From: Deltaproteobacteria bacterium GWC2_55_46 | GTDB taxonomy: Bacteria; Desulfobacterota; GWC2-55-46 | Assembly: GCA_001595385.3 (NCBI GenBank) | Contig: LVEI03000001.1 | Coordinates: forward strand, 1,703,501 to 1,767,500 | DNA: 64,000 bases | Direction: 5' to 3' | In this document: positions 13,557 to 26,401 of the stretch, one piece after another | How positions within the stretch are numbered: the stretch's first letter is position 1 | How the letters are laid out: every line of letters starts with the position of its first letter | Translations under genes and position numbers: made by a program | The notes under the pieces: generated by a model | Told to the model about the DNA's origin: nothing | The model's input: the letters and a program-made list of their open reading frames with translations, nothing else | Database searches by the model: none

Positions 13557-15024
13557 GCGCGTGATGGCGCGGACGTCTCTTTTTCTGCTGGTAATATTCC
13601 TGGCGCTTGCCTCAGAAAGCGGCTCCGCTACATCCACGAACGTGCCTGTAGGGAGCCCTATATACGACGGCCTTGAAAGGCTTGAGGTAAAGGGTCTCCT
13701 GGGCGGGGGTATCTTAACGACAAAGCCGATTTCGAGAGGCGAGGTGGCAAGGCTTGCTCGGGAAGCGGAGAAGCTTATCAAAGATGGCGCGCGGGAGGCA
13801 GGCCCGCTCAGCATAGTAGAGAGTTTAAGGCGTGAGCTTTCATTTGAGATGAGCCGTGGTGGTGACAACCTGGGCGGCGGCTTCTATCTCAAAACATCAT
13901 ACAGAGATGGCAGGGCGAGTTTCGCCTCCATCAACGATAATGGGTACGTCCCTGAAGATGGGGCTGGCCTAAGGGGCGGGGCCGTACTGAGGGGCGGCCT
14001 TTACGATACCGCGTCGCTATACCTCAACCCCGAATACCGTCTGGATGAAGAAAGGTCAGAAATCGAGCTTCTGCATGGCTATGCGGTCATCAACATCGGG
14101 AATCTGGAGCTTCTTATAGGCAGAGACTCGATCTGGTGGGGGCCGGGCCGCCATGGTGGGCTTATAATGACAAATAACGCAAAGCCGTTTGACATGGTCA
14201 AGGTCTCATCGCAAAGGCATTTCATCCTCCCGTGGGCCTTCAAGTATCTCGGAGTGCTGCGCCCCGCCATCTTCCTCGCCCGCCTTGAGGAAGAAAGGGA
14301 TTACCCGCACGCCAACCTCCTCGGCATGAGGGTCGATCTCAAGCCTGCGCCATATCTTCAGGCGGGGCTTTCGAGGGTGATCATGTTTGGCGGAGAGGGC
14401 AGAAAAGCCTTAACCCCCTCCGACTGGGCAAAGGTCTTTATCGCCTCAGACGGCGCCGAGCACGCCGATTCGCCCATAAACGGGAACCAGATAATCGCCC
14501 TCGACCTCTCTTACGTCTACGTCAACAGAAATAGGTACATCCCTTTTGCGGGCGTGAAGCTTTATACCGAATGGGGCGCGGAGGACTCTTCCGGCAATAC
14601 CAAGACACCCTCAGGCAGGGCCAATATATACGGGATGTATATGGACGAGCCATTCCGTCAGAGCGGAGTCGACCTTCGGGTCGAATGGGCCAATACCGCC
14701 AGGAGCGCGAGATACGGCCCTTATTGGTATACGCACGGGGTCTACACCTCAGGCTACACCCATGAGGGGCGCGTCATAGGACATCACATGGGGGGAGACT
14801 CAAGGGACCTATTTCTCAGACTTCAATATCATATGCCGAGGGCTACCTTAGGTGTCGAGGCTGATATCGAAAGGTCGGGAGTACATTCAACGCCCGATGA
14901 TAAGAGATGGCTGGGCTTTGACGTCTCGTATGATGGTGATGGCCTTGATCTGCGAGGCAACGTGGGGTTTGAGGACAGCCCTGGCAATGTCTTTATTGGG
15001 CTTGGGATCGCTCGCGAGTTCTGA
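13540..15024 (+). CDS. Capsule assembly Wzi-family outer-membrane protein
   Basis: A protein of about 494 residues with an N-terminal signal peptide (ARTSLFLLVIFLALASESGSA). It then has a helical segment VGSPIYDGLERLEVKGLL, typical of Wzi-like proteins, and a long region of alternating beta strands ending in an aromatic-type C-terminus (GLGIAREF), as expected of an outer-membrane barrel. The conserved stretch LLIGRDSIWWGPGRHG is diagnostic of the family. Wzi binds or anchors surface polysaccharide. Two starts are possible: ATG 13540, which overlaps the upstream gene, and ATG 13564, which gives a shorter signal peptide. It closes the + strand glycan locus. Confidence 0.82.
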   Translation: MRKGPERVMARTSLFLLVIFLALASESGSATSTNVPVGSPIYDGLERLEVKGLLGGGILTTKPISRGEVARLAREAEKLIKDGAREAGPLSIVESLRRELSFEMSRGGDNLGGGFYLKTSYRDGRASFASINDNGYVPEDGAGLRGGAVLRGGLYDTASLYLNPEYRLDEERSEIELLHGYAVINIGNLELLIGRDSIWWGPGRHGGLIMTNNAKPFDMVKVSSQRHFILPWAFKYLGVLRPAIFLARLEEERDYPHANLLGMRVDLKPAPYLQAGLSRVIMFGGEGRKALTPSDWAKVFIASDGAEHADSPINGNQIIALDLSYVYVNRNRYIPFAGVKLYTEWGAEDSSGNTKTPSGRANIYGMYMDEPFRQSGVDLRVEWANTARSARYGPYWYTHGVYTSGYTHEGRVIGHHMGGDSRDLFLRLQYHMPRATLGVEADIERSGVHSTPDDKRWLGFDVSYDGDGLDLRGNVGFEDSPGNVFIGLGIAREF

Positions 15025-15031
15025 CGTGTGT

Positions 15032-15419
15032 CAGGCTGCTGAAAAGGCCAATCTGCGGCGTCGTCTTCAAAACGGTAAAAGCGGCGTACCAGCAGGATGT
15101 TGAAAAAGTCCATCCAGGACTTTTTCAACTACGATTTGGCCTGAGTGAATCAGTTCAAATTCTACAAATTGCACGGCTTTTCAAGTCTCGCAATCTGGCA
15201 ATCCGTCCATGGATTGCTTTAGCAGGCTGTTTTTCAACAGCCTGCCAGAAAAGTACGCCTCATTCCTCATTTTTGAAGATTCCCAGCTTCCGCGGGAATC
15301 TGCTACATGTAATGGAAAAGACAATCATTGCATTTCGCTCGCTTGATCTCGCAGTAAACTGCGAGGATTGCTCGCGGGCATGTTCGACTCCTTGCATCCT
15401 GATCTTTTTGAGCAGCCTG
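15032..15419. repeat. Palindromic intergenic repeat, copy A, split by a second element
   Basis: The left half (15032-15090) begins CAGGCTGCTGAAAAGGCC and ends GCGGCGTACC. The right half (15248-15419) begins AAAAGTACGCCTCATTCCTC and ends TTTTTGAGCAGCCTG. Together they match the organisation of copy B at 26054-26185. Between them, 15091-15247 holds a second element with a perfect 13-bp stem, GTTGAAAAAGTCC at 15099-15111 and its complement at 15117-15129. It ends in another perfect stem, GCAGGCTGTT at 15222-15231 and its complement at 15236-15245. The whole lies between two convergent gene ends. It codes for nothing and resembles the dispersed palindromic repeats known in deltaproteobacteria. 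Confidence 0.75.
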
Positions 15420-15445
15420 AATGTGATCTTGAGGACAATCGATGG

Positions 15446-15472
15446 GCAAGAGGTAACAATGTTACCTCTTGC
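15446..15472. repeat. Perfect 27-base palindrome
   Basis: The arm GCAAGAGGTAACA at 15446-15458 is exactly complementary to 15460-15472, with a single A at the centre. It lies in the convergent intergenic space between the Wzi-like and Wzz-like genes. There is no T-run on either side, so an intrinsic terminator is not clear. It could be a protein-binding site or part of the repeat complex. Confidence 0.75.
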
Positions 15473-15534
15473 TAAATAGACGGATTCAAACAAGTGTTTG
15501 CGGCAGGTTTTTCGGCAACCCGCTAAGACGCGTT

Positions 15535-16740
15535 TTAAGCCTGCCTCTGCTTCAAGCCCGCGTGCTTCCTTATCTCATCGAGCACGCCCCTGTTCCCCGG
15601 GTCTTTTGAGACCTTGCGGGCGTATTCGACCAGAAAGGAGCCAAATACCGAGGCTATAAAACCGGAAAAGGCGGCGATGGCAGCCATTACGCCCCTTTGA
15701 GGCCGCTCCTTTCTCTCGGACGCGACCGCCAGGTCGAGGACCTGAATGGTCACCGCCTCCCTTGCCTCGTCCAGTCGGGCCATCTCGTACTGCCTGGACA
15801 GTATCTCGAAGAGAGTTTCGTTGTATTTCAGCTCCCTTAGTTTCCTTACATGTCCAGTGCCCAGTTCTGGGAAGCTTTTGGTCGAAAGCAGAAGGTCGTG
15901 CTTGCCTGTGCCTCCGGCCTCTATCTTCGTGAGGGCATTTTTCATGCTCCTTATCTCTTCAGCTACCCTCTGCAGGTCCGGGTTCCTGGGCGTCGTGTAG
16001 CTCTTCATCACATCGAGCTCCACCTCTTTTGCCGATATTTTGGACTTGAGCCAGGTGACAGACTCTATGACGGCCTCGGCCTGCTTCTCAAGCTTTACCA
16101 CGCCGGTCCTCTGCTGAAAGGCGCGCATCGATTCTTCGGCGGCGATAAGGCTCTCTTTGACCCGTTTAAGCTGCTCCTCTACGAAAAGCCGCCGCTTGGC
16201 CGCCTCGGTCACGGCAAGGTCCTTTGTAAGTTCCTTGAGCTCCTCAATGAAGGCGTTCGCCATCTTAGCCGCCCTCTGAGGGTCGGTATCTTCGACGGAA
16301 ACAGAGATTATGCCGTCTTTTGAGCTGCTTACGGATACGTGCTCTGAAAGTCTTTTGCGCGCGTCCTCCCTGAAGCTTACGCCGTATAGCTCCATGAGGG
16401 CGAACCTGTCTATTACGCGCTCAGAGAGGGTCCTGCTCCGCAGTATGCCAAGGTATACGTCGTTCGGGTTCTTTAAGCCCACCGCCTTGTCGAGTAGCGA
16501 TGAGACCTCCCCTACCGCAAGGACCTGTTGGTTGACGGCCTGCTGCGGCGGGAGTATCCTGGTCTCGGCCCTGTATGACGGGCTTATGAGAAAGCTCGCG
16601 GCAAAGCCCGCGAGGCCGCAAAAAAAGGTCGCTCCGGTTATTACCCGTTTTTTCTTCAGGACTATCGCCGCGTAATTGAGCAGGTTTATATCTCCTGCCC
16701 TGCGTGGCGGCCGGCTTGAGTTTTTCCTTTGGTCAAGCAT
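15535..16740 (-). CDS. Wzz-type chain-length determinant protein
   Basis: A 401-residue inner-membrane protein with one helix near residues 33-52 and a second near 355-375. Between them is a long periplasmic region rich in coiled coil (around residues 165-330). The N-terminal segment INLLNYAAIVLKKKRVI and the following SPSYRAETRILPP are typical of Wzz/PCP proteins, which control polysaccharide chain length. There is no C-terminal tyrosine kinase domain, so this is not a Wzc-type fusion. It follows the Wza-like gene by 18 bases on the same strand and is probably cotranscribed with it. Confidence 0.85.
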   Translation of the reverse strand: MLDQRKNSSRPPRRAGDINLLNYAAIVLKKKRVITGATFFCGLAGFAASFLISPSYRAETRILPPQQAVNQQVLAVGEVSSLLDKAVGLKNPNDVYLGILRSRTLSERVIDRFALMELYGVSFREDARKRLSEHVSVSSSKDGIISVSVEDTDPQRAAKMANAFIEELKELTKDLAVTEAAKRRLFVEEQLKRVKESLIAAEESMRAFQQRTGVVKLEKQAEAVIESVTWLKSKISAKEVELDVMKSYTTPRNPDLQRVAEEIRSMKNALTKIEAGGTGKHDLLLSTKSFPELGTGHVRKLRELKYNETLFEILSRQYEMARLDEAREAVTIQVLDLAVASERKERPQRGVMAAIAAFSGFIASVFGSFLVEYARKVSKDPGNRGVLDEIRKHAGLKQRQA

Positions 16741-26040: not shown

Positions 26041-26401
26041 ACTGGCCCCCGAACAGGCTGCTCCAAAAGTCCATCTGCTTTGTTGGCTTCAGAAGCCGGC
26101 TACTACGGCGTACCAAAGAAGTACGCCGCATTCCTCACTCCCCGGTTTAATGGGGCTCTCGCATATGGAGCTTTTTGAGCAGCCGAACAAAGTCTCTGTT
26201 TTTCAGCAACCTGCTAAGAAATAAGAGCCCCAGTATAGCATTTTCAGAGTGTCTTTTGGAGACAAAAAGCGGCAGATCCCTCGTAAAACCGGCCCGGGGG
26301 TTGACTGATTCTTGAAAAGATGTCCTAATTTATATAGGTGGATCAAGCCCTTGTGGCGCTCTGCCGGGCAGATGACCTTTTATGAGGAGGGATGGAAGCT
26401 G
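26041..26401. other. Divergent intergenic region holding repeat copy B
   Basis: About 360 bases between the beta-CASP gene and the SAP protein gene. The left half is occupied by the palindromic repeat at 26054-26185 and a shared tail GTTTTTCAGCAACCTGCTAAG-like segment near 26198-26218. A weak promoter candidate follows: TTGACT at 26301-26306 and CTAATT at 26325-26330 (18-base spacer). No other gene was found. Confidence 0.6.
26054..26185. repeat. Palindromic intergenic repeat, copy B (uninterrupted)
   Basis: The left end CAGGCTGCTCCAAAAGTCC and right end GAGCTTTTTGAGCAGCC pair imperfectly. The centre has a perfect 8-bp stem CGGCGTAC (26106-26113), 7-base loop, GTACGCCG (26121-26128). Copy A at 15032-15419 has the same ends and centre. 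About 13 bases downstream is a tail that matches 15507-15527 at 19 of 21 positions. Confidence 0.75.

Follow-up and report, generated by a model that had tools for sequence, protein, structure and literature searches.

Between positions 15032 and 15419 of the window (the whole 64,000-nucleotide stretch of Deltaproteobacteria bacterium GWC2_55_46 DNA analysed here), one palindromic repeat appears to be interrupted by another. Does this arrangement record the insertion of one small mobile element into a second, what would have moved the two, and why is the fold of the inserted element kept? The inserted element (B) did enter the interrupted one (A); we consider it probable that both are IS5-type MITEs moved in trans and, with less assurance, that the hairpin chain of B is kept for its spread.

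A mini-transposon inside a mini-transposon

Analysis of the junctions revealed that the interruption of A by B, proposed in the earlier note, is real. The left part of A (CAGGCTGCTGAAAAGGCC...GGCGTACCAG; 15032..15092, plus strand), which A copies elsewhere match from query base 5 or 8 to base 67, ends in the first copy of a CCAG duplication (15089..15092). B follows at 15093..15244 (plus strand; 152 bp; ends CAGGATGTTGAAAAAGTCC and TTTTTCAACAGCCTG), delimited by its copies, its relatives and structure model R1. The second CCAG (15245..15248) opens the right part of A, which is recognised from A copies elsewhere and runs up to the inner repeat GAGCAGCCTG (15245..15419, plus strand). CCAG therefore stands on both sides of B at the predicted junction 15090/15248, and B-free A copies have it once, as in L034 (GTACCAGAGAAGTACGCC). 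With one CCAG, the pre-insertion join reads GCGGCGTACCAGAAAAGTACGCC and resembles GCGGCGTACCAGAGAAGTACGCC of L034. R1 matches the window B at C1:1718593-1718744 with 170.7 bits, this copy being among R1's own sources.

The element and one 4-bp duplicate together add 156 bp, close to the 157 first claimed, and the insert does possess perfect stems of its own (13/13 bp and 10/10 bp at its ends). Its insertion point is the loop edge of A's inner hairpin (GGCGTAC...GTACGCC). Folded as DNA, the interrupted stretch reaches -80.8 kcal/mol, compared with -51.5 +/- 4.6 kcal/mol for 100 shuffles (z -6.3). The locus also occupies gene-free space, as described, between a plus-strand ORF ending at 15024 and a minus-strand ORF ending at 15535; only two ORFs of at least 60 aa reach into B (83 and 99 aa), and both lie mostly outside it.

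If A and B formed one composite repeat, as the earlier note had allowed, genome copies would always hold both parts together. Each is instead found alone many times, and these separate copies, B-free A copies among them, refute the composite reading, which retains practically no probability. B is a discrete gene-less element that inserted into an older A element, and the locus is confirmed as a mini-transposon inside a mini-transposon with a 4-base footprint left behind.

Copies and extent of the two elements

The source genome (2.79 Mb, 3 contigs) was searched with window 15025-15430 as query. This search identified 12 further near-full copies of B without A (87-95% identity), besides several partial copies; R1 counts 19 B copies, the window copy included. 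Across the 59 genomes searched, 23 carry B, counting the source genome itself: 5/5 of the genus, 15/24 of the family, 1/18 of the order and 1/11 of the class. Most matches in relatives start and stop at identical bases. In a MAG labelled Nitrospiria, L217 is a copy with 85.5% identity to B. An exact B pattern found no match in named genomes, a search that may leave out near records, and plasmids searched with B and with the GAG-type element described below matched neither.

Several B loci have unusual forms. Shortened B elements at L068, L069 and L079 have their two end hairpins almost joined, and L115 (C1:1392042, minus strand) is a solo end hairpin reading CTAA CAGGCTGTTGAAAAACAGCCTG GTAAAG. 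At L142 (G016), a B copy with a damaged left end lies inside a different inverted repeat, GACGTAC...AAGTACGCC. Five B copies of relatives (L127, L148, L163, L169, L175) have an A-like element within 300 bp.

For A, the comparison copy at 26054 is intact and without insert (26054..26213, plus strand), but its end, first placed at 26185, lies at 26213, the family extending to TTTTTCAGCAACCTG. Likewise, the two halves of the window A are A-like when joined, but the 26054 copy represents a shorter subfamily: like most A copies, it lacks some 105-110 nt of the window A's right half. The nearest intact relative, also without insert, is C1:608395-608639 (86-87% identity). TTTTTCAGCAACCTG closes A copies elsewhere, and with a degenerate TTTTTCGGCAACCCG present at 15508-15522 the window A may extend to about 15522; TTTTTCGGCAACCCG, followed by CTAA, would then be its displaced right terminal repeat (15508..15522, plus strand). 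Apart from this putative repeat, the region 15425-15545 is single-copy in the genome. A perfect palindrome with 13-bp arms (GCAAGAGGTAACA/TGTTACCTCTTGC) occupies 15446-15472 inside the presumed A tail; being single-copy, it was rejected as a third repeat.

As a query against the source genome, the 26054 copy gave 42 matches, itself and two short inverted matches counted. Pieces of A without B occur at many sites, some of which hold the pre-insertion sequence. By eye, 4-bp repeats flank 4/14 A copies (CTAA at L064, TTAA at L065, TTGG at L027, TCAG at L021); around the window A, which has GTGT to its left, no duplication is clear.

Target duplication, empty sites and insertion context

Flanks were counted for 90/94 B copies, two being skipped by the pattern and others having short or broken flanks; the count includes one copy twice (L094 = L145), and its statistics ignore kinship. 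The 4-mer before CAGG equalled the 4-mer after CCTG in 40/90 copies versus 25.0 under permutation (0/2000 permutations reached 40), and in 8/12 copies of the source genome versus 5.5 (p 0.035). The left flank was CTAA in 42/90 copies, and unequal 4-mers flanked 50/90. Part of the flank similarity is structural, since in 89/90 copies (67.3 under permutation) the first base beyond CCTG has an internal pairing partner. Plain duplication does not explain the pairing of internal positions -2..-8 with the 3' flank (309 versus 277 permuted). The consensus of IS5 target duplications is YTAR; a YTAR-like 4-bp duplication accompanies B, though not in every copy, and the window CCAG is itself not YTAR.

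For three B copies of the source genome, empty sites were read in relatives of the same genus. B is absent from site L004 in 5/5 genus genomes (G003 has nine N there) and from site L010 in G003, G004 and G005; in G005 a single TTAA stands where the filled L010 reads CTAA[B]CTAA. Site L009 seems empty in G001, with a left anchor of 18 bases.

Among 29 sites with long flanks, 17 were intergenic, 6 lay at a stop codon and 6 were genic, compared with 327 genic among 410 control sites. By rough gene calls, insertion exactly at stop codons occurred in 6/29 sites versus 7/410 control CTA[ATG] sites, and in 6/23 versus 7/83 when non-genic sites are compared, which is only suggestive of a preference for stop codons. 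A first stop-codon count (21 and 20 of 89) was inflated because the target contains TAA, and was set aside. Hairpin loops were rejected as a preferred target: a stem score of at least 7 was found at 1/89 sites, the window copy, versus 3.7% of controls. The H2 covariation, hairpin-target and gene-location counts left out L094 and copies of unusual length.

IS5-type ends and a candidate mobiliser

Both B and A carry IS5-type ends (CAGGNTGTTGAAAAA); B's terminal inverted repeats match those of IS5 elements, and its 152 bp contain no transposase gene. Judged by sequence, B and A are thus MITEs of the IS5 end type, and the 4-bp duplication that goes with them is mostly CTAA. The end type CAGGNTG(C/T)(T/G)GAAAAA is shared by B, A and the IS5-family elements ISAzs10 (L331), ISAtc5 (L333) and those of Azospirillum (L336), Thiolapillus (L332) and Dethiosulfatarculus sandiegensis (L308). 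Unlike B and A, these IS5 elements are about 1.3 kb long and encode a transposase. A 4-bp duplication, TTAG or GTAG, flanks L331, L332, L333 and L336, whereas the flanks of L308 are unequal (CTAG/TTGG). Among plasmid IS5 elements, such ends with equal 4-bp flanks (TTAG or GTAG) were present at 4/7 loci; at the other 3/7 no such ends were seen.

Named genomes were scanned for the end-repeat pattern, which gave at least 114 stretches, and among those listed 88/114 held, by eye, an inward pair of ends 20-320 bp apart. Seven longer-spaced stretches were read by their ORFs, and a transposase was seen only in D. sandiegensis L308. This protein scans as DUF772 + DDE_Tnp_1 and its element has the same ends as B; the IS is single-copy and interrupted by a stop. 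G054, of the same class as the source genome, includes a DUF772 stretch, L373, whose ends are related. In Nitrospira and Nitrospinota, L254, L265, L269, L276, L294 and L309 contain two right ends 77 bp apart, and the fold of L265 is rather A-like.

The source genome gave no match to PF01609 or PF05598 (DDE_Tnp_1 and DUF772), and this search found no autonomous partner for B there. DUF772 is absent from the source genome and the genus and present in 8/59 genomes; DDE_Tnp_1 is absent from the same two and present in 1/30. A DDE_Tnp_1 fragment in G018 was rejected, lying at a contig end with no such end repeat within 1.9 kb. By eye, no autonomous element with exact end repeats was recognised among 63 sites of the source genome. 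Outside known copies, the scan of this genome gave two inward pairs 0.7-6 kb apart (147784/153223 and 2186059/2188703), the former with ordinary ORFs between; at 13 end-repeat stretches, the 200 bases after each site were read. As no such transposase was found in the source genome, we infer the mobiliser from the ends. B and A would both have moved as MITEs by cut-and-paste, and a DDE transposase of IS5 type (DUF772 + DDE_Tnp_1) would act in trans; this putative mobiliser is not now found in the source genome.

A chain of five hairpins

B folds into five hairpins, all given here on the plus strand. H1 (15099..15129) contains most of the left terminal repeat and has a perfect stem (13/13 bp, 15099-15111/15117-15129) and the apical loop ATCCA; H5 (15223..15244) contains the right terminal repeat. 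Both are supported by folding and covariation. Between them lie H2 (15133..15161; covariation), H3 (15165..15197; structure model and covariation) and H4 (15198..15217; structure model and loop count), the last with apical loop TCCA. The right end stem, 15222-15231/15236-15245, pairs at 10/10 bp, and its last base is the first base of the duplication. The core H2-H4 (15131..15218) matches the ends-free model R3 at 96.8 bits, by construction, the window copy L001 being among the 12 model sequences.

Covariation was assessed in alignments of B. Alignment A1 comprises 15 rows (12 from the source genome and relatives, 3 from named contigs), with L097 = L225 entered twice; the five-hairpin structure has 36 both-side-changed cells in it versus 12.2 when shuffled (0/500). 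Without the duplicate row, 32 such cells remain versus 10.8, with a maximum of 19. Alignment A2 (12 rows) holds the same duplicate pair. In A3 (58 aligned matches), both-side changes occur in 53/55 pairs, a count that kept all 58 rows, and 609 cells are changed on both sides versus 144.5 shuffled and at most 166 when the structure is slid; A3 was obtained by fitting to the model and consists of related rows, and the model sources match by construction. Mismatches and loops were counted in 53 A3 rows, the last 5, weak reverse-strand matches, being left out. UCC lies strictly within the H1 apical loop in 50/53 elements, within that of H4 in 48/53 and within both in 46/53, and in the apical loops of H2, H3 and H5 in 0, 1 and 3 of 53.

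The chain carries different ends

When 100 of the 114 listed end-selected loci were scanned with R1, full-length matches were detected in Sedimenticola, Muproteobacteria, a gammaproteobacterial MAG and Balneolaceae; the Sedimenticola, Muproteobacteria and Balneolaceae loci were chosen by their end repeat and come from MAGs, in which mis-binning is possible. Four R1 matches that were examined scored 70-80 bits with structure versus 25-32 with sequence alone. The number, order and spacing of the five hairpins are kept across phyla. Among 148 genomes of the phylum drawn regardless of ends, with no more than 20 candidates scored per genome under stricter filters, 4 match R1 at E <= 1e-8: the source genome (19 copies) and three of another family (at least 20, 11 and 11).

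G074 and G146, of this other family, carry B's chain in elements of 209-211 bp with the ends GAGRSTGCTGCACGG...CCGTGCAGCRGCCTC. Such GAG-ended elements with B's chain are L385, L389, L393-L409, L412, L414, L416 and L417, and equal 5-bp flanks surround 20/23 GAG-ended copies (of 24 examined, one lacked a right end). G146 carries CAGG-ended copies as well. The R3 core model matches all 13 GAG-type or related copies given to it (10 of the 23 flank-scored copies, L385, L389 and L415) at 52-76 bits; it scores 47.5 bits on a Muproteobacteria element and up to 36 bits on Sedimenticola, and matches Balneolaceae weakly (E 0.001). In G174 (L390, L423) the ends are of a third type, flanked on either side by CTAG.

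According to these models, the hairpin chain is related independently of its ends. One chain with two duplication lengths probably implies two transposases, and we infer that one chassis has probably used different ones. More tentatively, with slightly less than an even chance in our estimation, the chain may be a cross-phylum mobile DNA chassis with two fixed UCC loops, whose ends are borrowed from different transposases (CAGG with a 4-bp and GAGRSTGCTGCACGG with a 5-bp duplication) and whose spread would involve a host or transposase factor that recognises the folded DNA.

Why the fold is kept

The DNA hairpins and the two UCC loops would matter for the spread of the element and not for the host site, a step of which we are less sure. 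The hairpins could instead be a by-product, with template switching correcting arm to arm and perfecting quasi-palindromes in the absence of structural selection; we regard this as unlikely, though it is the strongest of the rivals. Such a DNA-level process predicts balanced mismatches, and G.T and A.C numbered 78 and 71 (54 and 64 without loop-closing pairs). Pairing of the H5 stem extends into flanking sequence, and 30 private stem changes within genomes are compensated versus 0.9 expected by chance, a count that suits arm-to-arm correction but hidden subfamilies too. Against it stand 142 one-sided private changes, 96 of them pair-breaking, which suit the decay of single copies; moreover, correction of stems alone would not keep the number, order and spacing of the hairpins or the UCC loops of H1 and H4. 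Between genomes, 90 stem changes are both-sided and 112 one-sided (42 still paired), counted pairwise and not independent. The same mismatches bear on the proposal that B gives rise to a structured RNA, such as a minus-strand transcript with two GGA loops bound by a CsrA-type protein. GGA loops are binding sites of such proteins, and on the minus strand the UCC loops of H1 and H4 read GGA. If one RNA strand were under selection, G.T should, however, be the favoured mismatch, and its balance with A.C points to DNA hairpins as likelier than one-strand RNA; the control, 19 tRNAs with G.T 18 versus A.C 0, is biased in that the program may draw allowed pairs only. Gene orientation around the copies of the source genome is inconsistent, an Rfam scan of the elements gave no family at gathering score (best lax hit E 0.031, sub-threshold), and a CsrA search of loci including 336 kb of the source genome found no match. 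We consider an RNA function improbable.

Two further proposals concern movement. Single-strand transposition of IS200/IS605 type, with a CTAA cleavage site read by an internal TTAG guide, agrees with the pairing of internal TTAG with 3' CTAA above permutation. The window copy, however, has CCAG on both sides and the internal sequence TTTAG, and clean 5-bp duplications border relatives of the chassis; IS200/IS605 elements are not known to duplicate their target, whereas B has a duplication. With Y1 genes also not found in six B-bearing genomes, this mode appears very improbable. Scarcer still are the prospects of a REP/BIME element moved by RAYT (TnpA-REP), at which the earlier note had hinted. 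B is palindromic, mostly intergenic and present in many copies, and the source genome has one weak Y1_Tnp ORF, below the family cut-off (L031, C1:1243813-1244175, minus strand, about 180 aa). This lone ORF adjoins a different palindrome, GTAGGTTGGGTTAGCGAAGCGTAACCCAAC, and B is a 152-bp element with end repeats and duplication. Y1_Tnp was absent at E <= 0.01 from G003, G005, G016, G023, G027 and G028 (6/23 B-bearing genomes), of which G003, G023 and G027 are 61-77% complete and G005 and G028 are rated 100%; the hint is not supported. Insertion of B into A as MITEs mobilised in trans by an IS5-type enzyme remains the preferred reading.

Relation to known elements and significance

Nested MITEs are already known, and the nested insertion by itself is ordinary. 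Bacterial MITEs such as Chunjie of Geobacter uraniireducens are described in a review (PMC10969869); they resemble B in being short, gene-less and intergenic, with inverted ends, partial copies and direct repeats that fade as the copies grow old. B differs in two ways: its five local hairpins are kept across lineages by covariation, and each end repeat is folded into a hairpin of its own. The BOX, RUP and SPRITE elements of Streptococcus pneumoniae are likewise small and nested in one another (PMC10969869); they are other elements in another host, likened to A and B by description, and beyond that comparison the duplication and empty sites were read for A/B. REP palindromes share with B their palindromic, extragenic and repeated nature but measure 20-40 bp (PMC3733652), whereas B has 152 bp, end repeats and a duplication. 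For a structure-conserved chassis with exchanged ends, searches of open PMC papers and of Rfam brought up no description.

If the chassis reading is true, a gene-less element holds on to a precise multi-hairpin fold in distant lineages, though the end repeats and the length of the duplication differ. The reasons for the folding of small non-autonomous elements would then become testable, and B would represent a parasite of transposases that is able to switch enzyme.
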